Assembly: GCF_035083965.1 (NCBI RefSeq)
Contig: NC_089722.1
Span: forward strand, 39,975,958 to 40,039,957
Origin: Branchiostoma lanceolatum
Taxonomy: Eukaryota; Chordata; Leptocardii; Amphioxiformes; Branchiostomatidae
DNA: 64,000 nucleotides
Reading direction: 5' to 3'
The notes under the pieces: generated by a model
The model's database searches: none
The model's input: the letters and a program-made list of their open reading frames with translations, nothing else
Told to the model about the DNA's origin: nothing
Program-made: the position numbers and the translations under genes
In this document: positions 6,314 through 63,068 of the stretch, piece after piece
Layout of the letters: every line of letters starts with the position of its first letter
How positions within the stretch are numbered: the stretch's first letter is position 1

Positions 6314-7701
6314 TTAAACCTCTATGTTCTCGCTGTCCTTGATGGCATCCAGATGGGCTTCAAACAAAACAGCAAGTCTTTCTTTACTTTCCACGGAGTT
6401 ACGTTTGAAAATCCCTTTAAAGAATTTGTGAACCTCATAAAGTGTTGGGGAGGTCATCACGAGTTTCAGTTCATCTCGCAGTGAGTACGTTTGGTCCCTG
6501 GCCGCGGCAGCTACCTCGCACCACAAGAAATGCGCCGCCATGTACTCTTGGAATGTCTCGTGGAGGAATTCAGAGTGACCACATTTTCTCGCGAGAAAAC
6601 GCGAGAAGTCCGTCGTCAGGAGTCCTACGGAAAGCATATCCTGTGCGTTGGGAAACTCTTTTTTAATGAAATCTATTTCAAACTGTAGTTCTCCTATTCT
6701 GAGCCCGTCCCATGCAAGCTTTCCCAAACTTCTCAACACTTGTTGTATTGGTGGGTTCTTTAGGTCAAACTCCCATCCTTTCTTGCAGCAGAAGAGTTTT
6801 ACAATACAATGGACCATAGCCGTGTACAAATCAGCTTTCCCTGAAAACTCTAATATACCATCATATCTCCAGATGGAACAGATCAACATAATGTTAAGAG
6901 GATTTAGAGCAAGTTCTCGTATTTTTCGGTTTTCCTCAACTTTCATCAGAAGCTGACGTGCAGTGTCTTCGCTGTCCTTGAAAAATTTCATGACATAGTC
7001 TTGAGAGCATTCCCACGTAAACCCCATGAGTTTGCAAACGGTATCGCACTGTTCTAAGTCCTGTGCTCGTGGGGATGGCCTAGAAGTTACAAGAACATGG
7101 CAGCCCGGCAACAGTTGTCCATCAGTCGATTTCAGACCATCCGAGATTGATTTCACATGAGAGCTGAATTCATTCAAACCGTCAAGAATGAATAGAATTT
7201 GGTCCTGATGCTGAACAATGTACTTCCGTAGTTCTTCTTTGCTTATATTGATGTCATGGCACAGTATTTGATCAAATATTGCATCAATTACGTTGCCCTT
7301 TATGTGCCTAACCTCAAGAAGAAACACCATTGAATAGCGGCCTAGTTTACCGGTAGCCCAGTCGTATGCAAGTTTCTTGCAGCAGACTGACTTTCCAGTA
7401 CCGGCCGGACCCTCGAGGTGCACTTTTCTGATCTTTGTCTGCGTCATCGTTTCTTCTGATTGATGTTTTCCTTGTGAGCTCGATGTTCGGGGTTCCTTGA
7501 AGATGTTCGTAAGGCTGTCACCATTGATGTCGTCATCAAAGTGGCCATTGTCGCTCCGACACTGAATGTGCGATTTGGTGTAAACCTCCGAGAGATGTAG
7601 TTCATGTCCTTCAGTCAAAAGTAGAGGGCACACCTGCTCAAAGTGTGTCTTGTAGAAATCTTTCAAGTAGCTCGTGACTTCTTCCATGGCATGGAATGAA
7701 T
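6314..7701 (-). CDS. NACHT-domain NLR-like protein (NACHT exon, no LRR in this exon)
   Basis: Intracellular nucleotide-binding immune-type receptor of the STAND/NLR class. The large exon encodes 457 aa from the ATG at 7687 to TAA at 6314-6316. Visible motifs are Walker A GPAGTGKS (aa 93-100), Walker B ILFILDGLNEF (164-174), a sensor-like VLVTSRP (198-204), the NLR-typical ALNPLNIMLIC (260-270), and FLHETFQEYMAAHFL (374-388) in the winged-helix/HD2 region. The C-terminus stops shortly after, so no leucine-rich repeats are encoded here. Just upstream of the ATG is a good acceptor (TTCCTTTAG, exon start 7701) in phase 1, with the frame open through it. The exon may therefore receive upstream exons (a death-fold or other N-terminal domain), and the ATG at 7687 may be internal. 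NLR genes are greatly expanded in amphioxus. Ligand unknown. Confidence 0.88.
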
Positions 7702-8035: not shown

Positions 8036-8844
8036 AAAAATACAATTCAACCAGACTCACTACTACAACCGCCTGATGCTAGTCATGAATAAGGTACCTG
8101 GCAGATTTACGACAGTTAACGTTTACGGAAAACCGTTAACTTTTTGATTTTCAAAATACAATACCTGCGGCTATATGACAGTAAAGAGTGTCACACAGCA
8201 GGTAAAAGGGCTCCCAAATACCCGCTTTTTGCACGGCAGCAGTCAAATTACCGTTACCGTTTAGATTTAGAAAATACAACTCAACCCTACTCACCACTGC
8301 AACCACCTGTAGCTATATGACAGTTGAGAGTGTCGCACAGCAGGTAAAAAGGCTCCCAAAGACTCGCTTTTTGCACAGCAGCAGTCAAATTACCGTTACC
8401 GTTTAGATTTAGAAAATACAATTCAATCCTACTCACCACTGCAACAACCTGCGGCTATATGACAGTTAAGAGTGTCGCACAGCAGGTAAAAAGGCTCCCA
8501 AATACCCGCTTTTTGCACGGCAGCAGTCAAATTACCGTTACCGTTTAGATTTAGAAAATACAACTCAACCCTACTCACCACTGCAACCACCTGTAGCTAT
8601 ATGACAGTTGAGAGTGTCGCACAGCAGGTAAAAAGGCTCCCAAAGACTCGCTTTTTGCACAGCAGCAGTCAAATTACCGTTACCGTTTAGATTTAGAAAA
8701 TACAATTCAATCCTACTCACCACTGCAACAACCTGCGGCTATATGACAGTTAAGAGTGTCGCACAGCAGGTAAAAAGGCTCCCAAAAACTCGCTTTTTGC
8801 ACAGCAGCAGTCAAATTACCGTTACCGTTTAGATTTAGAAAATA

Positions 8845-9822
8845 CAGTAGAAGCCACTTAATTGCACCTCGGATAAACGCACCTTCCGTTTAATTGCACC
8901 GAATTCCAATATCCAAAACCGGTTCCCATTCACTGCATTGTTAGTGACTCCGCATATCTGCACCGCGCATGGTCGCCAATGCCGGATAACTGCACCAATT
9001 TTTTTCAAAAATCCTTGACAAGTTAACTGAAAAGGTTCGCTAAAATCGGCAAACGCGGTACAAATGAGCCGATACCTGCCGGTGTAAAGGCGCAATACCA
9101 CCAATATGTTTAAAACTGTTTTGAGTAGCAAAAGAAGGCGGTCTCCATTGACAGTTATGTTGATAGGAATCGTATGGGAGGTCCCGGGCGGGTCACCCGT
9201 AATCAGTAACCAAGTTTTAATTTCAGTTCCTAGTTTCATGGCGGTACATGATTTACGTAAATCGACAACTGCACGCTACGTAATGTAACACAGAAACTGT
9301 TTTCCTATGAGTGGCATGACGATGTTTCAGAATGCCTCCCCTGTAACATTACGTGTGTTGTAATGCGGTAGATCGCAGGGAAAAATGAAAGAATGCAATA
9401 TCAAAACAGGTTCGTAGTCGTCGTAGTCATTTCTTTATTTTCAGCAAGGGTTAACTCCAAGCAGATCTACATTGGGCGCGAAAATCGTATATGCTAGCCA
9501 AGAGAAGCTCCAGTCAGCCAGAGAAGCTCCAGTCACCCAGAGAAGCTCCGGAGCTTATCTGGCTGACTGGACCTTCTCTGGCTAGCATATACGATTTTCG
9601 CGCCCCGTGTAGATCTGCTTGAATATTAAGCAAGGGGTCAATAAATAAAGTTAATAACTGCATAATTTCGTCTGTTTTCCTTGTGCTAGTGTTTCTGACT
9701 AATAATACACCCCCTCGCCCATGGTGGTGCGGTCCAGCTGGGCATTTCGCATAATTGCACCAGCCGGATAATTGCACCAAAAACGCTGACAAATGGGTGG
9801 TGCAGTTAAGCGGATTCTACTG
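8845..9822. mobile_element. 978-bp pogo/Tc1-like non-autonomous DNA transposon with TA target duplication
   Basis: Ends are CAGTAGAAGCCACTTAA on the left and, inverted, CAGTAGAATCCGCTTAA on the right. Flanking TA at 8843-8844 and 9823-9824. The other array units read AAAATACAATTC with one TA at this point, so the unoccupied site is visible in the same window and fixes the boundaries. Subterminal AATTGCACC motifs recur near both ends. No transposase is seen; the 134-codon minus-strand frame over the left part is not recognisable. Confidence 0.85.
9459..9620. mobile_element. Nested palindrome inside the pogo-like element
   Basis: About 70-bp arms: the left begins AAGCAGATCTACA, and the right ends with its complement TGTAGATCTGCTT. 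Both arms contain GCGCGAAAATCGTATATG (inverted) and AGAAGCTCCAGTCAGCC variants. The centre has extra copies of CAGAGAAGCTCC. Probably a small foldback element inserted in the older one. Confidence 0.65.
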
Positions 9823-10477
9823 TACAATTCAATCCTACTCACCACTGCAACAACCTGCGGCTATATGACAGTTAAGAGTGTCGCACAGCAGGTAAAAAGG
9901 CTCCCAAAAACTCGCTTTTTGCACAGCAGCAGTCAAATTACCGTTACCGTTTAGATTTAGAAAATACAATTCAATCCTACTCACCACTGCAACAACCTGC
10001 GGCTAAATGACAGTTAAGAGTGTCGCACAGCAGGTAAAAAGGCTCCCAAATACCCGCTTTTTGCACAGCAGCAGTCAAATTACCGTTACCGTTTAGATTT
10101 AGAAAATACAACTCAACCCCACTCACCACTGCAACCACCGGTAGCTATATGACAGTAAAGAGTGTCGCACAGCAGGTAAAAAGGCTCCCAAATACCCGCT
10201 TTTTGCACGGCAGCAGTCAAATTACCGTTACCGTTTAGATTTAGAAAATACAACTCAACCCCACTCACCACTGCAACAACCTGCGGCTATATGACAGTAA
10301 AGAGCGTCGCACAGCAGGTAAAAAGGCTGCTACATGTAAATACTCGCGTTTTGCACAGCAGCACCTAAATCACCATATGTGGACGTGTCACCTCACGTTA
10401 GTCACGTGATCCGGTAGAACAAATATTGGTCTTCAATAATGGGTTCATGGTCCGGCCGGTCAACTTAGGGACACATG

Positions 10478-16730: not shown

Positions 16731-19700
16731 TTGTCTGACAATTAAAGAAGCATGATCGACAAGAAGAAAGTCCTCGAGCGGCAATCCAGCGCCGCTGCGG
16801 GAGACTTGGACGCCGTCTCCGCCCCCCGCACGCCCGAACACGCCGCGATCACCGAGGGACAACCAAATGTCTCCAAGAGGAGAGTCCTCAAACGGCAATC
16901 CAGCACCGCGGCAGCCGACGTGGACGCGATCTGCGCTCCTTGTACACCCAAACACGCCGTCATCATCGCCGATGAACAACCACTGAGGATTGCCAAGAGA
17001 AAAAAACAAGTGGAGTACCTTGAACATCCGCCAGATGGCGGCTGGGGTTGGCTGGTGGTGTTGAGCAGTTTCCTGATGCACATCGTCGTTATTGCGTCCA
17101 TTAAGTCGTTCGGCGTGTTCTACCCCGTATTCCGGACGGAGTTCAACGAAGGTGCGGGGGACACGGCGTTTATCCAGTCAACATTGGTGGGGATGACGCT
17201 GATATGTTGTAAGTACAGATTTTTATATCTTCAATTAACTTAGAACATCTGTTGTCATTGTAATATGAGTGCCAGTGTGTAAAATGCATTAAACAGAATC
17301 AGCAAGAAATGACCAAAAATGAATAAAACAAGAAATTCACAAAGCTGACAGTTTTTCACGGAGGGATGTTTTCTTTGATTTCTTGTAACCGTCAACAAGA
17401 AAGTTATGTTTTCGGTTGCGCGTGTCCATCCTCCTACGCAGGCCTGAATCCCTAAACACAGCCTCGCGGAAGTGAGGCCTGCGTAGGAGGTTGCGTGTGT
17501 CTGTATATATATATATGTGTGTCAACACGGTAAGTCAAGAATGCCAGGGCGGATTGTCTTGATATCTATCTAGCATGTTGTGAGTAATTATACAAAAATT
17601 AGATTTTGGGCCCCCTAGTGGCTCGTTAAGGTAGTGCAGTAGAACTTCCGGTTTTGTTATCGTAAGTGTTCTGCTGTTTTCTGATTGTTTAGTGGTAGAT
17701 AGTGATTTTGTTTTAGACATTAAAGGAGACTTAAACTCAGGTTAGGGTTGACGAATCGTCGTTATTTTTGGTAATTGTACTAGATAGCTTGCAATTGCAA
17801 TGTTTATCCCAGCTCCGATCGCCTGCGCCCTGAGCAAGCTGACCAGCTGCCGACTGATGGTGATGTCGGGAGGAGTTCTCGCCGCCGTAGGGCTCGTCAT
17901 CAGCTCTTTCGCCAGGAGTGTGACGTATCTGCTGTTCAGCCTGGGAATTCTCACAGGTGAAGACCACGTCACATTGTTTATTCTTTTATTTTGAAGATCT
18001 ACAGTACTAGCAGTAGTGGCCTTCCAAGTAAAGCAGACCCGGACCACAAGTATGAGTAACGGATAGTAATTTTGATTTGTTTTCATTTATGTTTTTGGTT
18101 ACTAGTATGTATACTTTTGGTTACTCGTGTTACTTAGGTCTCAACAATCCTCTGTTACTTATGTTACAGATTTGTCATACGTTTATTTTCTTTGTTATAC
18201 TTATGATTTTACTGTTTTGAAGTCTGGGCCCCATTGATTGAATGGGCCACCCAGCTGTCTAAAAAAGTCGATAAATGAAAATACATAGTATTACATATAC
18301 TACTATTAGTTTTCCTGGCCTGGAGTCATATTGATTACAAACATGTACATCACATAACATTATACTAAAATTAGCTTGAGCTCACAATATTTTTATGTAA
18401 CGTTACATTCATACATTTTAACTGATACTGCTTATACCATGGAATGTGAATTTTCTTCACATCTATTTCCAGGATTCGCTATGTCCCTGATGTACTCGCC
18501 ATGTCTGACGATGGTGGGGCGTTACTTCGACAAGAAGAGAGCAACGGCGAACGGGATAGGCTTGTCAGGGAATGGAGTGGGCATGTTTGCCTTGTCGCCT
18601 CTGTACCAGGTTCTGATAGATGAGTATAGCTATCATGGAGCGCTGCTAGTGATCGCTGCTATCACCCTTCACGGTTGTGTATGCGGGGCCTTACTCCGTC
18701 CGATAAGGCTCAGAGAAGACCTGGAACAGCAAGCTTTGATGTCCAAAAATCATAGAAACCCCCAAAACAACTCCAGATCAGCTTGTAGCAAGTGTTTGTC
18801 CTCTACTCGTAAGGTCTTGGAGATTTTCGACGTGTCGCTCCTGACGGATGTCGCTTTTGCGTTGTTCGTTGTCTCTCATTTCGGCACCATGCTTGGCTAC
18901 TCCATTGTATTTGTCCACATGGCAAAACATGCTCAGAACATCGGCGTTGGTAAAACCGAGGCGTCATTCTTGATCTCTGTCATGGGAATCAGCGAGTTCA
19001 TATTCCGTCTGATCGCTGGCTGGTTTGCCGATCTTGGGCTGGTTAGTAGACTTCACGTGTACATGATCGGGGCTGCAGGGGTGGGGGTGTGTAACCTGTT
19101 TGTCCCCTTCTGTAAGTCGTACGCTTCGCTCATTGTGTACATGGCGTTCTACGGGCTGTTCTCCGGGGTGTTCCACTCGCTGATAGCCGTGCTGGTGAGA
19201 GAGTACACCGGTGTGGCCCGGCTGTTCAACGGAATAGGGTGGACCTTGCTGGCAGGAGGAACAGCGTATCTACTGGGGGCACCAATCGCAGGTATCGTGA
19301 TTTTTGCACATACTTTTAAAAACTATATTTTATAAATTTTGTTGTTTCCTACCAATCTGTGATCTTGTGACTAAAGTAAAAGCGTGTTATAAAGTCTTCT
19401 GTTAAAAAGGACAGAGCTTCATTCATATTAAAGGAAAAGAGAATGACCGCAGATGACCCGAAACGGAACACGCGTTTAGTTCGACTTGGTTGTTGCCTTC
19501 GAACTGTAGTGTACTATCTCTACGAAGTCTCGCAAAACCTCCGCCGAAATTTAGCACTACAGCCTCTGAGAGTGTAGTAGACTTCTGTAGTAGACTACAG
19601 CAGTTTTCCTTTTACACCCAGAAAAAAAGCTGTTGTCTACTACAGTAGTAGATTATGATGTGTAGTACAACAGTTAAAAGGATAAGTGTAAGTTGGGCCT

Positions 19701-22990: not shown

Positions 22991-23776
22991 AAAATACTTC
23001 TTCAAAGAAGACGCTACAAGATCATATTGGAACGACAACTGCAACTTTATTCTAAAGTAAACTTGAAGATACACATTTCAAGCGTTAACGCAACAGTATC
23101 AACCGGAACTTCTCTTCTCATTTAAGTACTACACCACCACAAGTGTTGCATGTTACTTAAAATAGCGTGATATTTTCACTCAGACAGAAGTACGACAGAG
23201 CTGGTGTTGACCAATCGTTACATGTAAGTGTCCTAGTCAAGTTGCTGGAATTCTTGGGTAAAATGAAATATTAGATAAAAGAAATAAGAAAACATTTGCG
23301 CAGCTAGATTATGGGCATCTAAATCATTGCATGGGTTGAATAATCTTTGTACTTGCAGCTTAGCAGGTATTAGTCACACATTCGTTAGATGAAACCAATC
23401 ATCCAACCAACCAACCAACCAAACAGCAGATGTAATTGTTTGCGAGTAGATGTCAACAATCGAGATGCCCAAAACCCTTGGCAGCTAGTTTTCATAACTC
23501 AACATTGTGACAGTATGTCAGGCTGGTGCCTTCATCGAGTCACTATGCAATGTCTTAAGTCTTGAGTAAAACAAAAAAGTCGTTTCTGTTGCAACATACT
23601 CCTCTGTCACAGTGCTGATATATGTACTTGAAACTAAGACGACATCCATTGATGTTGCGGGACCTATTTGCAGTTCTTTCGTTATGACTAATATCAGTAC
23701 ACATCAATATAACACTGTGTTGCAGTTGCGTAAATGTTCCATTTATATGATCATGATATAAAGCAATGGAAGCACC
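22991..23776. other. No gene seen
   Basis: AT-rich. A minus-strand AATAAA (plus-strand TTTATT at about 23049) could serve the repeat-protein gene that ends at 23777. Part of the dispersed repeat also found in the transporter intron lies at 23725-23770. Confidence 0.4.
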
Positions 23777-25229
23777 TTAACATAGATAGCCCCGGCCGTC
23801 TTGTTTCTTCCTCTCTGCAGAGTCGTCAGCCCGGCCGTCTTGTTTCTTACAATGTAAAGGGTAAGCCCTGCCGTCTTGTACCACCAACTTTGCAGAGTCG
23901 TCAGCCCTGCCGTCTTGTATCCCCAACTTTGCAGAGTCGTCAGCCCTGCCGTCTTGTATCCCCAACTTTGCAGAGTCGACAGCCCTGCCGTCTTGTATCC
24001 CCAACTTTGCAGAGTCGACAGCCCTGCCGTCTTGTATCCCCAACTTTGCAGAGTCGTCAGCCCTGCCGTCTTGTATCCCCAACTTTGCAGAGTCGACAGC
24101 CCTGCCGTCTTGTATCCCCAACTTTGCAGAGTCGTCAGCCCGGCCGTCTTGTATCCCCAACTTTGCAGAGTCGTCAGCCCGGCCGTCTTGTATCCGCAAC
24201 TTTGCAGAGTCGTCAGCCCGGCCGTCTTGCTTCCCCCACTTTGCAGAGTCGTCAGCCCGGCCGTCTTGCTTCCCCCACTTTGCAGAGTCGTCAGCCCGGC
24301 CGTCTTGTTTCCTCCACTTTGCAGAGTCGTCAGCCCGGCCGTCTTGTTTCCTCCACTTTGCAGAGTCGTCAGCCCGGCCGTCTTGTTTCCTCCACTTTGC
24401 AGAGTCGTAAGCCCTGCCGTCTTGTATCCCCAACTTTGCAGAGTCGTCAGCCCGGCCGTCTTGTTTCCTCCACTTTGCAGAGTCGTCAGCCCGGCCGTCT
24501 TGTTTCCTCCACTTTGCAGAGTCGTCAGCCCGGCCGTCTTGCTTCCCCCACTTTGCAGAGTCGTCAGCCCGGCCGTCTTGTTTCCTCCACTTTGCAGAGT
24601 CGTCAGCCCGGCCGTCTTGTTTCCTCCACTTTGCAGAGTCGTCAGCCCGGCCGTCTTGCTTCCCCCACTTTGCAGAGTCGTCAGCCCGGCCGTCTTGTTT
24701 CCTCCACTTTGCAGAGTCGTCAGCCCGGCCGTCTTGTTTCCTCCACTTTGCAGAGTCGTCAGCCCGGCCTTCTTGTTTCCTCCACTTTGCAGAGTCGTCA
24801 GCCCGGCCGTCTTGTTTCCTCCACTTTGCAGAGTCGTCAGCCCGGCCGTCTTGCTTCCCCCACTTTGCAGAGTCGTCAGCCCGGCCGTCTTGTTTCCTCC
24901 ACTTTGCAGAGTCGTCAGCCCGGCCGTCTTGTTTCCTCCACTTTGCAGAGTCGTCAGCCCGGCCGTCTTGCTTCCCCCACTTTGCAGAGTCGTCAGCCCG
25001 GCCGTCTTGTTTCCTCCACTTTGCAGAGTCGTCAGCCCGGCCGTCTTGTTTCCTCCACTTTGCAGAGTCGTCAGCCCGGCCGTCTTGCTTCCCCCACTTT
25101 GCAGAGTCGTCAGCCCGGCCGTCTTGTTTCCTCCACTTTGCAGAGTCGTCAGCCCGGCCGTCTTGTTTCCTCCACTTTGCAGAGTCGTCAGCCCGGCCGT
25201 CTTGTTTCCTCCACTTTGCAGAGTCGTCA
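23777..25229 (-). pseudogene. 3' half of a 13-residue-repeat secreted-protein gene, cut off by a transposon
   Basis: About 37 tandem 39-bp units (plus strand CAGCCCGGCCGTCTTG... ending CAGAGTCGT). In the minus-strand frame continuous with the signal-peptide half at 34760-36040 they read ADDSAKWRKQDGR and variants (KLGI in the left third, KWR/KWG in the right). The frame ends with irregular units (LVVQDGRAYPLHCKKQDGR, then AERKKQDGRGYLC) and TAA at 23777-23779. Irregular terminal units are usual at the end of repeat genes. It now has no start codon or signal peptide of its own. Variation favours this frame: CGG/AGG and AAA/AAG changes are silent. The 39-bp period keeps several other frames open, and those are shadows. 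Confidence 0.65.
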
Positions 25230-25344
25230 CACTATGCGAAAGGGGGTTATTTCCGGACATTTCAAAGTTTGTATACGTCCGGACTGGGAACGTTTTCGGA
25301 CATATCCGGGCAATATCCGGACGATACGCCCCTACGTGTTTGGA

Positions 25345-26400
25345 TAATATTCAAGTCCAGAATGGGAACATTTTACTATTTCTCATATCCGGATTTCCAG
25401 TAATGGGACATTTTCGGACTCATTTAAGACAAAACACGTTCCGAATATGTCATAATTTCGGACCCAGTTCGGAGGAATAACCCTCCGGAAAGATAGCAAA
25501 TGCTGAAAATATTCAAGTCCAGAATGGGAACATAATACTATTTCTCATATCCGGATTTCCAGTAATGGGACATTTTCGGACTCATTTAAGACAAAACACG
25601 TTCCGAATATGTCATAATTTCGGACCCAGTTCGGAGGAATAACCCTCCGGAAAGATAGCAAATGCTGAAAATATTCAAGTCCAGAATGGGAACATAATAC
25701 TATTTCTCATATCCGGATTTCCAGTAATGGGACATTTTCGGACTCATTTAAGACAAAACACGTTCTGAATATGTCATAATTTCGGACACAGTTCGGAGGA
25801 ATAAACCTCCGGAAAGATAGCAAATGCTGAAAATATTCGGAATCCAAAATGGGAACATAATACTATTTCTCATATCCGGATTTCCAGTAATTGGCCATTT
25901 TTTGAGTCATTTGGGACAAAACTCGTTCCGAATATGACATATTTTCTGACCGCGTTCGGAGCTGTTACACACCGGGAAATTGCATATACTAAGGATATTC
26001 GGGACCAAGAATCGGACCGTAACACTACTCCTCATATCCGGATTCATAGTAACGCCCGAAAGCGAAAGATGGTGATGTCCGGATATTTTTAGGTACGTAT
26101 ACGTCCGAATTGGTAACGTTTTCGGATATATCCGGACAAAAAAAACAACTCAACTTCCTCACGTTTTCGGATTATTTCCGTAGTCAAGAACGGGACCACA
26201 GTGCTCTTCATAATATCCGGACTTCCAGTTTCGGACTCATTTAAGACGAAATGCGTTCAGAAAATGACCTAACTTCTGACCGCGCGTTCGGGCTGTTACG
26301 CTCCGGAAAGTTTACATATAACTAGGATATTCGGAACCGAGAATCGGACCGTAACACTTCTCCTTTCAGAAACTCTATTAGGCGTTACATTTTCAGACTA
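25345..26400. repeat. 162-bp subterminal tandem repeats of the CACTA-like element
   Basis: TCAAGTCCAGAATGGGAACA occurs at 25351, 25513 and 25675, exactly 162 bp apart. A fourth, diverged copy starts near 25834, and further degenerate copies near 25990 and 26170. Each unit contains several CCGGA or TCGGA motifs. The first three copies are almost identical, implying recent expansion. Confidence 0.85.
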
Positions 26401-26559
26401 TTTGGGAGAGAAAATGATCCTAATACAGTATAATATGTTTTGAATTCCTAACTCTTTACACATAGACGAATATACTGCACGAACTAAGAATAACAGAAGT
26501 ACCACACCAAAGATTTAGGCAAATCAATACACGAATGCAAAACAGAAGTATCATCAAAT

Positions 26560-26900
26560 GCAAGTTGTATTGGAGAACTCTCACTAACACCACTATCACA
26601 AAGACGTGAGGAACTATGCAGAAACTTTGCACTCTCTCGACTGAGATCCCCGACCTTCAGGGACTGGTTCCCACTGTGTCGTGAAAGACTCGCTCGAGTA
26701 ACCGACTACAACAAACATTTAAAGCCAACACTGTGAGATATACAAAAAAGGCTTATCTACGTACTACGGGTCAACTTGCTAAACTACGATAGTAAAAACC
26801 GACTTCAACAAACTTTTAAAGCCAACACTGTGAGATATACAAAAAGTCATATCTACGTACTATAGGGTCAACTTACTAAGCAGTGATAGTAAATAGTGGA
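26560..26900 (+). pseudogene. 3' end of a LINE reverse-transcriptase ORF, nested in the CACTA element
   Basis: Reads LSLTPLSQRREELCRNFALS, then LRSPTFRDWFPLCRERLA and a stop near 26732. This matches the extreme C-terminus of CR1-like ORF2 proteins (pattern ER-R-x-L-C-x-x-FA-x-S, then W-F-P). A stretch of about 97 bp covering the stop and tail (TTTAAAGCCAACACTGTGAG) is repeated once at about 26815-26890. No RT core, so a 5'-truncated dead copy. 26900-27078 has nothing further. Confidence 0.7.
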
Positions 26901-27078
26901 ATGTGACGTTTTAATGATGAAGTATGCCACTGTATGTGCTTCTTATATAATGTATGTAAAAAAAAGCTAGCCTTTTGTCAACAAGCCTACCAAGTACCAA
27001 TCCAACCCTAGGGCTGCCATGTGGTTTGTTTTATAAGTTGTATAAACCAGTCATCAGTCATCATCACAACTCCTAGCT

Positions 27079-27494
27079 TCAGTCGCTGTCTTCCTCTTCC
27101 TCCGTGTCTTCCTCTCCCTCTGTGCGTTCTTCTCCCTCTACGCGTTCCTCTCCCTCCGCGCCTTCCTCTTCCTGGGAGGCCACAGTCATGAGGTGTGGCT
27201 GTGCAGCCCGCTGGATGGTGGACATCTGTCTGTAAACTCCTCCCCTTGCTTTCTCTCTTTGTTGGAGAAGGGCAGGCGCCTGTCTCTCCTATTCTGGTCT
27301 AGGACCGGCTGGCACCTTCGCGTTATGTCCGTTAACTTGTCCGCCCGCCAGGCGGGTGGCTGGACCCACACCGATGACTTGTCATCCTCATCGCTGACTT
27401 CATCGGACATGTAAACCTGTCCTGATGACTTCAGGTAGTCGTATTCTTCTCTGTCCAAGACGTCCCCTGCCACCCGAACTCGGGACTTGAACAG
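27079..27494 (-). CDS. Acidic-tailed ORF fragment of a transposon-type accessory protein (unrecognised)
   Basis: A good acceptor (TTTCTGTACCCACTCAG) opens an exon at 27494. It reads LFKSRVRVAGDVLDREEYDY, then YMSDEVSDEDDKSSVWV and PPAWRADKLTDI. This resembles, by pattern, the MSDEE...PPWRS segment of proteins encoded by animal DNA transposons. Near 27240 the frame forks: one frame stops soon (27186). The other continues through a highly acidic tail (GEE/EGEE/EEEEDSD) to TGA at 27079, so a one-base frameshift or an alternative splice is needed to join them. A possible upstream exon with basic RKAEAVKRKK ends at donor 28023. Function unknown. It lies inside the CACTA element and may be its accessory gene. 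Confidence 0.4.
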
Positions 27495-28022
27495 CTGAGT
27501 GGGTACAGAAAAAATCTTGTTATTAAGCATGGCGGGCACCTGGGCAGGGCTACACTGCAATAAACGATTTTGAAGGACACAAACCAATATCATCATAGGG
27601 GGATTTTTAACACAAACCGCCGCGTTATTAAAAAAACAAGATACATATTACTTTACCATTCTAAATATAGCCGGCAAAATGTAGCCAGTCTTGGTAGGAA
27701 ATGCATTTTTCATGACTAATAGTTTTCATAAACGTTGTTTCCAATGATCACTTGTAATTTAGATAGAATGTTAGATCTTGGATAGAAAATTCGAAAACAC
27801 GCAAAATATGCATAAATGCCTGATAAATATTACAGCTTTCTTTTGGAATTTGGTTTTATAAAAAAGAAACTAGTCAGATAGTTCTACTTTAGTGTCAGTT
27901 GCATACCAGGTTTTCTTGAACTTCATGATACCCTAACACGTGGATGCCATGCACAAAGCCACTTGAACAATCGCCTAACCCATCCCTTCAATCTGTTAAT
28001 TTTAATAGATTAATACACATAC

Positions 28023-28130
28023 CATCATTTTCTTTCTCTTGACCGCCTCAGCCTTCCGTCCTCCTCTAGCAGCTTGCTCTGCGCCCTCAGATGTTGGTGC
28101 AGGTGGTTGAATTCGTGGAAGGAAGGAAAT
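28023..28130 (-). other. Possible upstream exon of the acidic-tailed transposon ORF
   Basis: The minus strand reads QPPAPTSEGAEQAARGGRK then AEAVKRKKMM and a donor GTATGT at 28022-28017. The acceptor side is unclear. Paired with the acceptor at 27494 it would give a basic, disordered N-terminal region. Speculative. 27500-28020 between them is AT-rich without other features. Confidence 0.25.
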
Positions 28131-28149
28131 AATTTTAGTGTTAATGGAG

Positions 28150-28400
28150 GTTACCACTAAGGTTATCCATTGCGAGGTTAAGGTCATCTATGGCTAAATT
28201 GTCCAGGAAAACCTGCACGCCGTAGTCGTCGCGCGTGCGCTGGTCGGCTCCGGGGTAGGCTAGAGCAAGGAGGTTAAGGCTAGAGCGACCGCCTGGCGCA
28301 CTCTCAGTTCCAATTGCTGCGGGGTCTCGCTGCGCTTTTGCCGCAAAGCCTGGGTGTCGCTGCGGTAGTGGAACGGGTCCTGTGTGCGGCTGTACATCCG
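28150..28400 (-). pseudogene. Gag-like fragment of an LTR retrotransposon, frameshifted
   Basis: The minus strand reads DPFHYRSDTQALRQKRSET and PQQLELRVRQAVALA in one frame. After a small indel it reads LALAYPGADQRTRDDYGVQ and FLDNLAIDDLNLAM in another. The order Q-x2-E-x-L...R-LA-x-LAYPGAD...FLDNL is typical of Ty3/Gypsy-like gag in animals. No protease, RT or LTR is seen nearby. A nested dead remnant. Confidence 0.55.
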
Positions 28401-28433
28401 CCTTAGATGAGGGTCTGCATGGGGGGGTCCTGG

Positions 28434-29450
28434 CAACGCTTAACGGTAAATTCAGGCCAGCCGATAACGCTTAACGGTAAATTCAGGCCGGCCGATAACG
28501 CTTAACGGTAAATTCAGCATTTTAAAGAACATGAGGTACCCCTGAAGACGACGTCCTGGTCCGTGGCAAGAGACCTATTACGCTATGCCATTTTCGCACG
28601 CCTGCTCCGAACCCTTTAAATTCGGCGGCGACAGGAAATTTTGAATTGGTGGGCGAAATGTTCATGATCATGATGAAGAGCACCGAAGGTGCGACGAAAA
28701 CTTTGAGATCTTGACCCTCTGAAACGCTTTTTCTTGCATTCTGAGGGGGGGGGGATTTTTGCTGAAGAGTAAGCTAAGTTTTATGATATCTCTATTTAAA
28801 AATAAAAAAAAAAAAAAACAGAAGAGTTGCAGCTTGAGGGGCGTCACGCCCTCCAAACCTCGTTGGAGCTGCGACATGCTCCCGGGGAAAATTCTTGACA
28901 CCCTGAAATGCTATTTCTTGCATTTCAACGGGAAAATATTACTGGTAATACAAGTTAAGTTTAATGATATCTCTATTTGTGAAAAAATACAGACGAGTTT
29001 CAGCTTGACTTTGTGGGGTCGACGCCCTCCTGATAATATTTTTCGACGGAGGCCCGGCATGCACCCGGGGAAAATTTTAAAATCTTCAACCACGAAACGC
29101 TTAATTTCCTGAATTTTGATGAGAAAACTTTGCTCGTAGAGTGAAAAATAGAAGTGTTTCAGCTTGAAATTTTGTGGGGGGCTGGGGGCGCCCTCCTGAC
29201 ATATTTTCGCCTGAGCCGTGTGCTCCCTGGAGAAAATTTTGAAATCTTCACCCATTGAAATGCTTTTTCCTGCGTAACGAGGAATTACTCAATAACGCTT
29301 AACGTTGAATTCAGGATGACAAATAACGCTTAACGAGGAATTAAAACGACCAGTAACGCTTCACGATTAATGTACGGATAACGCTTAACGGTGAATTCAG
29401 GGCGGCCGGTAACGATTAACGGTGAATTAAAATCGCTCGTAACGCTTCAC
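28434..29450. repeat. Composite repeat: AACGCTTAACGGTAAATTC units flanking four copies of a 160-187 bp repeat
   Basis: 31-bp units (AACGCTTAACGGTAAATTC plus a spacer) at 28434, 28465 and 28496. About six diverged copies of the same motif lie at 29289-29450. Between them, units starting near 28690, 28880, 29065 and 29228 share GGGGAAAATTTT, GAAACGCTTTTTCTTGCATT, AATGATATCTCTATTT, GTTTCAGCTTGA and GGGCGCCCTCC. No coding content. All inside the CACTA element. Confidence 0.75.
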
Positions 29451-29459
29451 GAAAAAGGG

Positions 29460-31640
29460 CATGCAGACCCTCTTAGATAGACGCAGAGAAACCGGGGAGC
29501 CAGGAGCTCTTCGGAGTAAGACGTGGGGTGGGTAGCCATCGCCGGTGACGAAGCAGGAATGGGGCCGTAGAAGAAGGACCGAAATCAATCTCCGGGGCAT
29601 TAGTTTTGGCGGCCGCCATGATGGTACAAAAATAAAAAAAGCCAAACAGAAATGGGTACTACAAAACGGGGAGCCAAAACAGAATAGGTCTAAAAACACA
29701 GACGAGATTTTGAGCAAACGATAGTGAAAGAATAATTTATGGAGTAGGACACAGAAAACTGACAACAACGGTATATCCATTTGCAAGTCAAGGCGTCCGG
29801 GAGAGCGGTCTTCTTGGCAAAACAATGGCCCGAAAGGCGCACAGCGGGACTCTAGAGACGGACTGCGATGTCGGCAAGGTCCAATCAATTATGCAGTGTG
29901 AAAAAACGGACGCGAAACCCACGCCACTAGTAACACAGCTGGAAAACGGAAAATATGCAGAAAACTGTAGCCAAAACAGCAGGACAAAGAATTTGGTAGA
30001 ACAGGAAAAGCAACAACACTCGTACGGCACACAAACAGTCGGGAAACGTTAACTAGCTACGCAAAGAAACGGGCCGAAAACAAGCCGCACGCGTAGTACA
30101 CGGGAACCGACAGCGCAAAAAGAAGCACACAAAATTCACAATTACAAGCAAGCAGAAACCACAGTTGTCCGAACAAGCGGTGTAGGAATCAATGCAACTT
30201 TTCTGGTCTAGGGTATAGGATGTGGACTTAACCTTTACATCTTAAGTTACGCTACTATAGAGATAAGAACGCCAAGCCGGTTTGATTAATACTCTTGTTC
30301 GGATCGTTATTTATCCCGTGGTATATGCAGTACTATACAAGCCAAGTCTACTATAAAGGCCTACAGTACAAGATGCACAGTAATCGATCTAGAGCGTTAC
30401 GATTACGGAGGTTGAGTACTAGTGTAATGATGGAAATGTAGGATATTCTACAATCATCTAGTATTTATTACGAACAAAATACAGAGAGCTAATCTACGTG
30501 TGATCACTTACCTTAGTCACAGGATAGCTTCTGAGTTCAAATCGGCGGGCTTATGCTAAGGTGCTAGCTGTTCTCACTCGCTATTGGTCAACACTAATCT
30601 ATTCAGATGAGCTTCCGAATACGGCCTGGTCACGTGTCTTAGTCCTAAATATAGCTTGCTTACTGCCTAGCTACTGAGAAACCTTTGTATAAGATCAGGA
30701 CACATTATGTCGTCTATTCTATCTGTTACAGCTGACAGGATGATCCTGTCAGCAGTGCAGATTTTTCTACTGCTGACCAGGATCGTCCTGACTCAGTAGC
30801 CACTTCCAAATGTCTGGTGGAAGATCGCGAAACGCTCTTTCCCGGGAACACTACACTACAGCCTCAAATCAACCTCCTTGCTCAATTTGCCTGCTAAGTA
30901 TCCACTGTAGTGTCAGCTACCCTACCCTCCACGCAGATGTTAGGCTTGTACATGTTTTGCATAACTAAAAGACAGAAGCTATTGACAGGCTAGTCTTACC
31001 CTTAATATACAATCATAGCATTGAACATAATCATGTAAAATGTCTTGGCTTGTGCTGGTCAGACTGGTATCGGGCCATTGACCAGCAGTTCATTCGGCGG
31101 CCCAAAGCAGTCATCCCGCGGTAAATAGAGCTCAGCACTCCTGGGGAGTTTCCCGGCCCCGCCCAGTAGTACCAGCCCGGCTTTTGCTTCAGCTTGTATG
31201 CCCGCCCCGCCAGCAAGGGGAAAACTACTAAATGCATTTTATGTGTGTTGAAGACTCCCAAACATACAACCCTAAACATCATTCGTTGAAATGGGACACG
31301 TGGTAGATTAATAATGATGATCCATGTCATTTGTTAGATGGTAGTAAGGTTTCGGGGGAATCTCCCGTCAGCGCCTTTGGGTATCAAAGACATGAAAGAT
31401 GCAGCTGAGCTAACGGGGTCAGGTTACATGCGAGAAAGCTTATTTTTTGTAAACAAATCCATTGTGTACTTACCAGTTCAAATCTTGCATGTTGCACACA
31501 TTCGCAAACATCGTGGTGGCGCGGTATAGACCGTTGTTTGTCGGGCTTTGACTGCTCCAAACACGCGTGGTACGGTCTCATCAGGTCAAACTGTCGCACA
31601 CTTCACTGTTTACATCCGCACAAAAATAAAACACAGATAT
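29460..31640. other. CACTA interior without a recognisable gene
   Basis: 29600-30050 is purine-rich on the plus strand; short frames there (75 codons at 29825-30052, 153 on the minus) have no recognisable motif. A minus-strand frame at 31031-31330 includes KPGWYYWAGPGNSPG but no known domain. CTGACAGGATGATCCTGTCAG at about 30732-30752 is a short palindrome. No transposase core was identified in any frame by eye. Confidence 0.4.
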
Positions 31641-31679
31641 TATGTTCCAACACACATATATAATGTGCCTCAGCTCCGA

Positions 31680-34600
31680 TCCGTTCTAAAAAAAATCTGG
31701 TTCCGAATGACCTGACTTTCAGAAACTGCACCACCCGTATACATTTTATTCTCGGTTGAATTTGGCTTCCTGATACTCCTTGGTGACAGTATCATCAAAT
31801 AGCCTAGAATGTGCTGCCACCATGATAAAGTTGCAGCGCCACTGTACGGCGAACAATAGTACAGCACATCGCATATTCTGACCATGAGTGCCTGTTTTAG
31901 TCCGAAAATGGGACTTTCCCATGCTGCAACGCTTCCATGGAGTATCATGAGTAAATTTGGAGCATGATACTGTCCGTATATGGAGCTTTCCCATACTGCA
32001 ACGCGTCTATGGAGTATTTTGAGTGAATTTTGAGCATGATATTTCCGGATATGTAACTTTCTTATAATGCACCGCTATCACTAGTATAGATCTATAGTAT
32101 TTCGATGGAGTATGTGCTTCATATGATATCGTGTCAACTCCTAATTTGTCTAAATTTATTTCCAAAATATATCATCTCAAGGGCGACATAATCCTTGATC
32201 AATTACAATGAAACCTACATACAATATATGAACCGTATCACAGCAAGAATCGCCAATGACGCGTATCTTGAAAAAAAAGACGTCTTATTTGTCCGGACAC
32301 GCAACAGAAATGAACACCCAAAACCATGCCCGGAAACGGTCGGAATATGTAGCATGTCATGTTACTCCAAATATGTCCGAACACTGTCACTGATTCTTGG
32401 TATATCTCTAGCTCTCTAGCTCTTGTATCTGTGTCGTGAATTGAACATGAGTACGGAACAAGAAACGCCAATGGCACGTATTCGGAAAAAACTGGAAGCT
32501 TTTATCCGTCCGGATATGCTTCGGAACAATTTCTGAATCATGATATTTGCGGATGTAGTAAATATCGAATGTCGTCCGAAAATGGTCCAGAAATGAGGCA
32601 TATCATGCTACGTGTCAACTCCTAATATGTCCAAAATTTATTCCTGGAATATAATTACCTTGGATATGTTCAGAATATAAAGCGTGTTATGCATTCGGAA
32701 GCAAGATACGTCAATGGCGCGTATCTTGAAATATAGGAAAGTCTTATTCGTCCGGATTCGCAACAAAACATGTCCGGACTCAGGATATTCCAGGATATGG
32801 TAAATATCAGACATCTTGTCCGGACACATTCCAAATATCAAGCATGTCTTGGAATATATCAACTCCGAATTTTTCCGGAAATCAGCCCCTTTCGCATAGT
32901 GTGTCTGTGAAACTCTCCTAGCTTCAAATTGACACACTAGGGAGAAATAACTACTTTCTGATGTAGGTATTAGTTTAACAAGTCACCAAACAGTGGATAA
33001 TGGAATTCGAAGTTACCGTGTTCTCGGCTTGTCCATGCTTGTCCATCGTCTGAGGTCAATTTGCACCCTGACCCCGTCCTCGCTCCATCCACTTCGGTCC
33101 TGACTCCCGAGTTCATGCAGGTCATTTCTCGTCATCCCAGTTCAGAAAAGAAGAATCTTACGGTGTAATCCGTCAGATCATATCGAGAATATGAGGACTT
33201 GAACTCAGATACCGAGCATCGGCACACCCCGGTTTCCTCTAACCGTTAAGTTCCGCGCTCACATTCCAGGCATGCGTGGTAGACATACACTACTATACAA
33301 ACGGACCAATCAGAAATGAGGCATGCTAGGGTCCATCTGGTGGCCCGATGTACACATACCAGAGCGTTTCTTGGCACAATGTTCAATCTTCAAGACAGGC
33401 AAGCCGGTATTAACACAGAACTGTGCTGGAAGGGTGCCGTTATATATTTCTAGGGCAGGCTACATGCTTGTAGACACGTATACAAGCATTACCAATGAAT
33501 TCACATCATGCAGTAGCAATATTTGAATATTGCAGTTATATGTTGTATTTCAATTTTCAAGTTTAGCATAATACACTCTTGTAATATTTTCTAAGATTTT
33601 AAAAACTACCAAAAACCCAAAATGGTATATTTGCTGATTGATTTGATTGATATGCATAGAGGCAAAAAAGCTCCTCCTAGAGGCATAAGATATTATTGTA
33701 CCAACCGTATCCTGATCGTGATACGTACGAACACGTCCGGAAATCTAAGTGGCCCACAATCCACCTCTGCTATGAATTGTCATTTCCGACTTATTTCCGG
33801 ACAATTGATTCTGTTCAATTTCGGAGTCCGGAACGCCTTCAGAAAATATGCTACGTATACGGATTTCAGATATTTCCCGCAAACGCACATGGCACGTATT
33901 CGGAAGAATCAGGAGCACTTGCTTTGCTTTAACAAAGATAGCAACTTTTTCGGAGTCAATATATTCTCGGATATGTAGCGTGTTTTGACGTAGTCATGAC
34001 ACAGCATGGATTGCTGAAGTATCTTAACAGATATCTCCGTATGTGTAAAGAACACGTATCCGGAGTTACAAAACGCCCATGTACAGTATCCGCAAATATC
34101 ATTTGTCGAATTTTTCTGCATACGCAATCAAACAATTCCTGATTGAAAATATTTCCGTAAATGTTATGTATCGACAAAATGTCCGGAAACGCTCAGCCTA
34201 CTACGTGGCATGTCCAATAATGTGTCAAACTCATGATTTGTCCGTATACATGTATCCAAAGAATTCGGAAAAGTCATATTTATCCGGATTTGCTAGGAAA
34301 CATTTCTTGACAAAAAATATGTCCGAATATGTTAGTGGTCGAAAAAGCACTTGCAAATGGTTTGTATATTTGACATGCCCAGTGATGTGTCAAACTTTGG
34401 ATTTGTCCAGAAATACTATTTGAATGGATAACAACATTTTCGGAGTCAATATATTCACGGATATCTGACCTTTCACGACAGAGTCAGAATACAACATGGA
34501 TTGCCGGAGTATCGTAACAATGAATATCTCCGTATACATACAGAAACACATATCTGGAGTAAGGATACGACCCTAAACAGTATCCGGAAAAATAAAATGT

Positions 34601-34740
34601 TGTATTTTTCCGGATTTGCTTGGAAAAATATATTGAATCAAAATATTTCCGAATATGTTAGGTATCGATTTGAGTACTTGGAAACGGTCCGAATATGTGA
34701 CATGCCCAGTGATGTGTCAATTTCGGATTTGTCCGGAAAT
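31680..34740. repeat. Right subterminal region of the CACTA-like element, TCCGGA-rich
   Basis: Numerous TTTCCGGA, GTCCGGA and TCCGAATATG motifs in both orientations, with loose local repetition (for example GGCGCGTATCTTGAAA at about 32258 and 32715, CATGCCCAGTGATGTGTCAA at about 34374 and 34706). It mirrors the left subterminal region at 25240-26350. No gene seen. Confidence 0.65.
33188..33258 (-). repeat. tRNA-like sequence (SINE head or tRNA pseudogene)
   Basis: The minus strand contains an A-box-like TTAACGGTTAGAGG and, about 35 nt on, a B-box-like GAGTTCAAGTCC. No perfect cloverleaf was drawn. Probably a SINE remnant inside the CACTA element. Confidence 0.4.
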
Positions 34741-34759
34741 GGACCCCTTTCGCGCAGTG

Positions 34760-36040
34760 TCAGCCCGGCCGTCTTGTTTCCTCCACTTTGCAGAGTCGTC
34801 AGCCCGGCCGTCTTGCTTCCCCCACTTTGCAGAGTCGTCAGCCCGGCCGTCTTGTTTCCTCCACTTTGCAGAGTCGTCAGCCCGGCCGTCTTGCTTCCCC
34901 CACTTTGCAGAGTCGTCAGCCCGGCCGTCTTGTTTCCTCCACTTTGCAGAGTCGTCAGCCCGGCCGTCTTGTTTCCCCAACTTTGCAGAGTGGTCAGCCC
35001 GGCCGTCTTGCTTCCCCAACTTTGCAGAGTCGTCAGCCCGGCCGTCTTGTTTCCTCCATATTGCAGAGTCATCAGCCCGGCCGTCTTGCTTCCCCAACTT
35101 TGCAGAGTCGTCAGCCCGGCCGTCTTGCTTCCCCCACTTTGCAGAGTCGACAGCCCGGCCGTCTTGTTTCCTCCATATTGCAGAGTCGTCAGCCCGGCCG
35201 TCTTGCTTCCCCAACTTTGCAGAGTCGTCAGCCCGGCCGTCTTGTTTCCCCCATATTGCAGAGTCATCAGCCCGGCCGTCTTGCTTCCCCAACTTTGCAG
35301 AGTCGACAGCCCGGCCGTCTTGTTTCCTCCATATTGCAGAGTCGTCAGCCCGGCCGTCTTGCTTCCCCAACTTTGCAGAGTCGTCAGCCCGGCCGTCTTG
35401 TTTCCCCCACTTTGCAGAGTCGACAGCCCGGCCGTCTTGTTTCCTCCATATTGCAGAGTCGTCAGCCCGGCCGTCTTGTATCATCTTCCACTTTGCAGAG
35501 TCGTCAGCCCGGCCGTCTTGTTTCCTCCACTTTGCAGAGTCGTCAGCCCGGCCGTCTTGCTTCCCCCACTTTGCAGAGTCGTCAGCCCGGCCGTCTTGCT
35601 TCCCCAACTTTGCAGAGTCGTCAGCCCGGCCGTCTTGCTTCCCCCACTTTGCAGAGTCGACAGCCCGGCCGTCTTGTTTCCTCCACTTTGCAGAGTCGTC
35701 AGCCCGGCCGTCTTGCTTCCTCCACTTTGCAGAGTCGTCAGCCCGGCCGTCTTGTATCCCCAACTTTGCAGAGTCGTCAGCCCGGCCGTCTTGTTTCATC
35801 TTCCACTTTGCAGAGTCGTCAGCCCGGCCGTCTTGCTTCCCCAACTTTGCAGAGTCGTCAGCCCGGCCGTCTTGCTTCCCCAACTTTGCAGAGTCGTCAG
35901 CCCGGCCGTCTTGCTTCCCCAACTTTGCAGAGTCGTCAGCGGAAAGGCCGTTCAGGATGTATCCATCAGCGAAAAGCGTGCTGGTCCCAAGCAAGACCAT
36001 CAAACCCACCGTGAAGGCCGCGAGGACATTCATGTTTCGG
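34760..36040 (-). CDS. 5' half of a secreted 13-residue-repeat protein gene (signal peptide plus about 30 repeats)
   Basis: Unrecognised protein. The minus-strand exon starts at an acceptor (CCATTTTAG, first base 36040); ATG at 36033-36031. The N-terminus MNVLAAFTVGLMVLLGTS, with TLFADG following, is a textbook signal peptide (likely cut after LFA). After a short spacer (YILNGLS) come about 30 repeats of ADDSAK(W/L)(G/R)KQDGR. Repeat changes are often silent in this frame (GAC/GAT, AAA/AAG), and two 3-nt insertions (near 35480 and 35795) keep it open. The array runs into the CACTA element at 34759, where the frame continues 14 residues (TARKGSISGQIRN) to a stop near 34717, so today's product would be about 438 aa. 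Ancestral continuation: 23777-25229. It could be a structural secretion, an adhesive or a multi-peptide precursor. No dibasic processing sites are seen, which weakens the last. Confidence 0.65.
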
Positions 36041-36479
36041 CTAAAATGGGTCATATGAATAATATGAAAGCATTAGTGGTTATCCATTGAGAACTGTAAT
36101 TTTTTTTATTCAGAAAGCATCGGTTGTTATGTTGAGAAGTTTGTCTGAACTGCATTAAATTTGGCTTTTTCCGGAGAGAACACACCTAAAAATAAAATAT
36201 TTATCAAAATAGGCCCATGATCACCATATCTTATTAAATGTGCTAAGAGATTTACTTTGCAATAAATTAGAAGTGGCAAAGTTAGGCTGAGCTTTGCAAT
36301 GTGACACAGCGTTAGACAGGCCCCAAGATCTGCCAGTGGGAAATAGATTAAATTCTACATCCACATGGCCACTGCTGATATACTAGTACTCCATTCACAA
36401 AGAAAAAGAATGCTACGTATTAAACAAATGGTTAAACACCTGAACAAGATGACGTGCACATGCAGTGTAAATGATAAAG

Positions 36480-36605
36480 AACAAAGACACACACCCTGAA
36501 AAATAGATCGCTAAAGATATGGATGTCTCTTCCAGTCGTCGCTCGGTGTTCTCTGGTCTGTGGATAGTGCGAGTTTTGAAGCCAGCTCAGGGGACTTCTT
36601 TTATA
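36480..36605 (-). promoter_or_regulatory. TATA box and probable 5'UTR exon of the repeat-protein gene
   Basis: The minus strand has GGTATAAAAG (TATA core at 36598-36605). A start about 30 bp downstream (near 36570) would give a short leader exon. A possible donor is TTTTTCAGG/GTGTGT near 36497, joining to the acceptor at 36041-36042. A TATA box plus leader exon plus signal-peptide exon suits a highly expressed secreted product. The donor is the weakest part. 36060-36480 shows no other feature. Confidence 0.4.

Positions 36606-62974: not shown

Positions 62975-63067
<93 letters not shown>
62974..63067. repeat. (ATC)n trinucleotide microsatellite, about 31 units
   Basis: Pure ATC repeat with no interruption. 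The poly-Met frame across it is an artefact. Confidence 0.97.

Positions 63068-63068
<1 letters not shown>

Follow-up and report, generated by a model that had tools for sequence, protein, structure and literature searches.

Repeat arrays and the inserted element

We analysed a window of 64,000 nucleotides from the lancelet Branchiostoma lanceolatum (contig NC_089722.1 of assembly GCF_035083965.1, positions 39,975,958 to 40,039,957; coordinates below are those of this whole stretch), focusing on its minus strand between positions 36605 and 23777. This region contains two arrays of a 39-bp tandem repeat that share one reading frame, a signal-peptide-like open reading frame (ORF) and a TATA sequence upstream of them, and an insertion with a target-site duplication that holds the two arrays apart. 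A sequence-only reading of the region had proposed an unrecognised secreted protein split by a transposon. We give about an even chance to an interpretation of this kind, namely a lancelet-restricted gene for a secreted protein that is built as a coding minisatellite and is broken here by a CACTA-like element.

In the output of Tandem Repeats Finder (TRF), one array spans 23791-25229 with 37.0 copies and the other 34759-35940 with 30.2, and on the minus strand both translate in a common frame as ADDSAK(W/L)(G/R)KQDGR, as the sequence-only reading had it. A unit-by-unit walk, in which the unit cut by the insertion is counted once, gives 67 units in total, the same number as the approximately 67 tandem 13-residue repeats proposed earlier. 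The 5' part (34762..35940, minus strand; TRF, translation and unit walk) holds 30 whole units plus the opening codon of the cut one, and the 3' part (23777..25228, minus strand; translation) comprises the remainder of that unit and 36 further units, the final ones irregular, terminating in GYLC and a stop. The shared frame spans 431 codons 5' of the insertion and 483 codons 3' of it, down to the TAA at 23779-23777, and stays unbroken through the whole set of 67 units, the diverged last ones and three length variants among them. The claim that insertions and deletions comprise whole codons thus holds, though only those three of the 67 units have one: 64 units are 39 bp long, two are 42 bp and one is 36 bp. 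There are 19 distinct 39-mers. The unit centre reads KWRK in 24 units, KWGK in 13, KLGK in 10, KLGI in nine and IWRK in four, with seven more versions seen once each; Gly-Arg is conserved in every unit. Locally the units show a higher-order arrangement, WRK-WRK-WGK in the downstream half and runs of LGI near the 3' end, an order that unequal exchange would be expected to yield. About 30 bases past the stop there is a TATAAA (23742..23747, minus strand) that might serve as a weak polyadenylation signal; the next AATAAA is at 23051.

The insertion occupies 25230..34759 (9,530 bp, minus strand) and, judged by its inverted ends, target-site duplication and subterminal tandem repeats, appears to be a CACTA-like (CMC-type) DNA transposon. 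Its terminal inverted repeats are CACTGCGCGAAAGGGG (34744..34759, minus strand) and CACTATGCGAAAGGGG (25230..25245, plus strand); the ends begin with CACTGCG and CACTATG and, aligned without gaps, are identical at 25 of their first 30 positions. The flanks of the insertion read GGGCTGA and TGACGACTC, so that TGA (TCA on the plus strand) is duplicated at 34760..34762 on the gene's 5' side and at 25227..25229 on its 3' side (both minus strand). Removal of the element together with one TGA restores GCT GAC GAC with the frame intact, and the earlier proposal of an array split by a transposon and rejoinable in frame by deleting 25230-34759 plus one TCA is thereby borne out. Within the element, TRF detects a 162-bp subterminal repeat family at 25346-25961, and other, diverged repeats are present as well.

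CACTA elements create 3-bp target duplications. According to PMC4079192, Chapaev elements, which belong to CMC, are marked by CAC...GTG termini and a target duplication of 3-4 bp. The lancelet element fits this group in having CAC...GTG termini, a 3-bp duplication and subterminal repeats, but no transposase was recognised in it: none of the 11 scanned ORFs among its 25 longest (28911-29255 being one of the 11) matched a Pfam family at the cut-off. Chapaev3 elements show a TWA duplication pattern in the same source, whereas the TGA found here does not conform to TWA. Lancelet ProtoRAG was considered as a candidate for the inserted element because its terminal inverted repeats all carry an identical CACTATG heptamer, as stated in PMC8289069, and one end of our element starts with CACTATG. 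However, the other end starts with CACTGCG, and it was on the length of the target duplication that ProtoRAG was rejected: 3 bp here against 5 bp in ProtoRAG, the five-base flanks GCTGA and TGACG being different. Nor did the 11 tested ORFs give any match to RAG1 or RAG2.

Several other observations concern the element. A 136-residue ORF (27186-27596, minus strand) resembles DUF4616 (PF15394) weakly and below the cut-off (E 0.033; 0.042 on repeat) and may be cargo or a gene of the element. The terminal motif CACTATGCGAAAGGGG recurs a third time within the element, at 32886-32901 (minus strand), oriented like the end at 34759, which possibly indicates a nested or composite CACTA-like structure. 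We also asked whether the element could be spliced out as an intron and rejected the idea on a hand reading of the frame: no in-phase donor was seen, and the sole fair one of six listed nearby (34826, within the best 3.7% of GT dinucleotides) breaks the frame. By the same hand reading, the 3' edge of the element, CCCCCTTTCGCATAG at 25231 (minus strand), is a fair acceptor (within the best 3.4% of AG dinucleotides) in phase with the downstream array.

The 5' end and the predicted product

Upstream of the arrays, the minus strand carries a candidate TATA box, TATAAAAG, at 36598..36605, a sequence that occurs three times on this strand within the window. It is followed by a possible 5'-leader intron (36186..36494, minus strand) with donor AGG/GTGTGT and acceptor TTTTTAG/G. 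Scored with a weight matrix, the donor (36495) ranks within the best 1.5% of GT and the acceptor (36185) within the best 2.7% of AG on the minus strand. Since adjoining sites score better (acceptors at 36495 and 36439 and, slightly, a donor at 36186), the exact leader intron is uncertain. The putative N-terminal coding stretch MTHFSRNMNVLAAFTVGLMVLLGTSTLFADGYILNGLS (35941..36054, minus strand) has candidate ATGs at 36054 and, for a second methionine, at 36033, and the sequence MTHFSRNMNVLAAFTVGLMVLLGTSTLFADG... runs directly into the repeats. Besides translation, two lines of evidence point to this stretch. Its codon score is highest in this frame (+9.5 nats) when codon usage is drawn from two further ORFs in the window, and the start in frame with the repeats satisfies a signal-peptide heuristic that combines a hydrophobic 10-mer with small residues (hydropathy plus a cleavage rule).

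How often such a start arises by chance was estimated from two samples of window positions, both excluding four tandem-repeat stretches. A signal-peptide-like in-frame start was present at 188 of 16,600 positions in the first sample and at 252 of 23,032 in a denser one, with 126 of the latter reaching the hydropathy of the locus; shuffling the 400-bp flank produced one in 67 of 5,000 trials. Only nine of the 252 also have a TATA-like box (TATAAAWR) 50-800 bases upstream, a distance range that was fixed after viewing the locus. The true chance must exceed this raw fraction, by our guess several-fold, because the sampled positions overlap and are not independent, the range is post hoc and more than one open frame could be hit at either end of the array. 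With these qualifications, the TATA box and the signal-peptide-like 5' end noted earlier stand, the former at 36605.

The current allele would encode 445 residues from the first methionine or 438 from the second, the latter being the length originally predicted. The 445-residue product consists of 431 codons of signal peptide and repeat followed by 14 read into the element, and the uninterrupted protein would have about 914 residues. The 872 repeat residues are rich in Asp (21.7%), Ala (15.3%), Lys (13.6%), Gly (11.5%) and Arg (11.1%), with 5.0% Trp, and contain 216 Lys and Arg against 191 Asp and Glu. AlphaFold2 run without an alignment formed the signal helix alone (mean predicted local distance difference test score, pLDDT, 38.9), an outcome weakly consistent with disorder.

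Coding tests and searches for relatives

A number of results weigh against a protein-coding interpretation of the repeats. The sequence-only reading had counted many silent changes among the units, which proved wrong: only three of 18 variants are silent in the claimed frame, the fewest of all six frames (5, 4, 8, 4 and 7 in the others), with a silent fraction of 0.24 expected. The ratio of replacement to silent differences per site (pN/pS) among the 19 distinct units is 0.89 in the claimed frame versus 1.15, 1.55, 0.71, 1.11 and 0.46 elsewhere, two opposite-strand frames (0.71 and 0.46) being lower. When the last regular unit is excluded, the 14 variable positions are spread 5, 5 and 4 across the three codon positions. 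Long ORFs cover the arrays in other frames as well, and since the unit is free of stops in several frames, open frames prove little. The codon score of the unit is likewise higher in another frame (+14.28 nats) than in the claimed one (+8.75 nats). Consequently, no silent excess indicative of purifying selection on the frame was seen, at the low power that 18 variants afford, and the protein-level constraint proposed earlier is unsupported; the sequence-only reading had itself named silent changes no commoner in this frame than in others as evidence against it. We regard this as a lack of support rather than a refutation, since few independent variants remain after unequal exchange and a low-complexity chain may be loosely selected. 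The variable positions cluster in codons 6-9 of the unit: of 16 such positions, 10 fall there (hypergeometric P 0.0005), as do eight of 14 without the last regular unit (P 0.011). This clustering is suggestive at most, since the interval was chosen post hoc and a scan of all 12-base stretches on the 14-position set gives P 0.13.

Searches for homologous proteins point in the same direction. With the upstream half as query, only database proteins of about 245-779 residues were compared. Within that range the 445-residue upstream ORF had no match at E up to 1 among the 7,994 candidates sharing most words, and its residues 1-60 had none at E up to 10 among 72 candidates; a control search confirmed that lancelet proteins are present in the database. 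Because of the length rule, an uninterrupted protein of about 914 residues would be undetectable in this search. Pfam returned no family at E up to 10 for either half; a shorter piece of the downstream half gave one sub-cut-off match to PA14 (E 0.17). The earlier statement that no known family has this repeat therefore stands within this scope, Pfam for both halves and the protein database for the upstream half. The unit patterns tried had no exact match in viral or prokaryote contigs, six peptide patterns from the upstream ORF had none in viral contigs, and four unit strings had none in searches of the literature. Among the matches listed for amphioxus literature on secreted tandem repeats, CACTA elements, minisatellites, mucus, neuropeptide precursors and orphan genes, titles and abstract openings revealed none on this protein.

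A phmmer search of the PDB gave E-values down to 7.7e-11 for the whole sequence, and all 10 of the sequences listed at E up to 10 were Cake or Scone designs. The designed beta-propellers Cake8-10 (PDB 6tjg, 6tjh, 6tji) were rejected as relatives: the matches are compositional (KW, GKA, DG), an artefact of aligning repeat against repeat, and in two alignments single stretches score only E 0.00037-0.0078.

Alternative interpretations

The strongest competitor, which we rate as a serious contender at somewhat below even, is a non-coding 39-bp minisatellite, stop-free in several frames, that grew by unequal exchange next to a chance signal-peptide-like ORF and TATA sequence and then took a transposon. 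It would account for the absence of both a silent excess and a third-position bias in the claimed frame, for the long ORFs that other frames of either strand show over the arrays and for the failure to find a homologous protein with the upstream half. Patterns of the WRK-WRK-WGK type are also typical of unequal exchange, although a coding array would show them too. On the other hand, a signal-peptide-like start in frame with a TATA-like box upstream is a rare combination, present at nine of 23,032 positions (non-independent ones, with several array frames available to be hit), and the frame survives the irregular end units and the three length variants. On balance, we consider a coding minisatellite gene somewhat likelier than a non-coding array.

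Two further coding interpretations fare worse. The suggestion of a multi-peptide precursor, made in the sequence-only reading, is one that we now regard as improbable. Many short peptides would be cut out at basic residues, for example units that start with Gln and have W-G-K or L-G-K at their end, which would give pyroglutamyl, amidated peptides. A signal peptide followed by tandem units agrees with such a precursor, as do the 24 of 67 centres that read KWGK, KLGK or IWGK and are followed by Gln, and cleavage at the Gly-Arg present in each unit is conceivable. In known peptide precursors, however, cleavage sites are conserved and spacers vary, whereas here the putative basic triplet falls where the unit varies most: 28 of the 67 centres have RK without Gly (KWRK in 24, IWRK in four), and in 12 the Lys is replaced by Ile or Val (KLGI in nine, and KLRI, KLVV and KWKMI once each). 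Since the residues of the triplet vary, a precursor cut at this point is unlikely. A protein-coding array on the opposite strand, read in frames PAVLFPPLCRVVS or GRLVSPTLQSRQP, seems very improbable indeed. These frames have the most silent variants (8/18 and 7/18) and the lowest pN/pS (0.71 and 0.46), and their ORFs span most of both arrays, but the differences between frames rest on just 18 variants, the codon score of the unit is negative in both, and the plus-strand ORF that leads into the downstream array (23734, MFHLYDHDIK...) has, by eye, no signal peptide.

Proposed origin and nature of the repeat protein

If the arrays belong to a coding minisatellite, transcription would start from the TATA promoter at 36605, the leader intron would probably be removed by splicing, and in the product a signal peptide would precede about 67 copies of ADDSAK(W/L)(G/R)KQDGR. 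Each unit would combine acidic residues at one end (ADD) with basic ones (K..KQ..R) and, in most cases, a single Trp or Leu, so the chain might behave as a polyampholyte that is disordered, close to charge balance and dotted at regular intervals with hydrophobic 'stickers'. The simplest reading of such a composition is a disordered, nearly charge-balanced secretion with approximately one hydrophobic residue per unit, which could be released in bulk as a component of mucus, matrix or adhesive. The length of the array would change by unequal exchange, and in this haplotype the element would cut it, leaving a truncated product of 445 residues and a 3' half without a start.

Coding minisatellites and secreted low-complexity tandem-repeat proteins such as mucins, glue and silk-type proteins offer the closest parallels. 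The features in common would be a signal peptide, short units that are nearly identical and keep one frame, a length that changes through unequal exchange, and a biased composition. The lancelet unit differs in being charged, 13 residues long and equipped with a single Trp or Leu instead of being rich in Ser/Thr/Pro or Gly/Ala, and also in having no sequence match and no visible coding constraint. A bolder reading, which we regard as rather doubtful, is that the roughly 67 units of 13 residues, studded with Trp or Leu and diversifying at their centre, form a secreted polyampholyte that is specific to lancelets and so far undescribed, and that the species carries both working alleles of its gene and a natural null made by the transposon.

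Other features of the window

Elsewhere in the window, an MFS ORF (18376-19335) shows 93% identity over 88% of the query to a monocarboxylate transporter from B. floridae x B. belcheri; its identity to B. lanceolatum SLC16A12 is 96%, over 52% of the query. Upstream of it, the ORF at 16752-17243 is identical at 146 of 152 positions to the N-terminus of the B. lanceolatum SLC16A12. These matches support a lancelet origin of the DNA, with B. lanceolatum or a near relative as the likeliest source. Near a NACHT-domain ORF (6314-7687), TRF finds two arrays, at 8163-8846 and 9823-10328, about 1 kb apart and apparently of one 142-bp unit. A perfect ATC microsatellite of 31.3 copies lies at 62975-63068 (TRF).

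Implications

If the repeat is not expressed, the locus shows how a minisatellite without stops can pass for a gene when a signal-peptide-like ORF lies next to it; the silent-change test tells the two cases apart only weakly. If it is expressed, a basal chordate would have a bulk secretion that is restricted to its lineage and unusual in its sticker-and-spacer design, and the allele broken by the transposon would be a natural knock-out, providing a direct test of its function.

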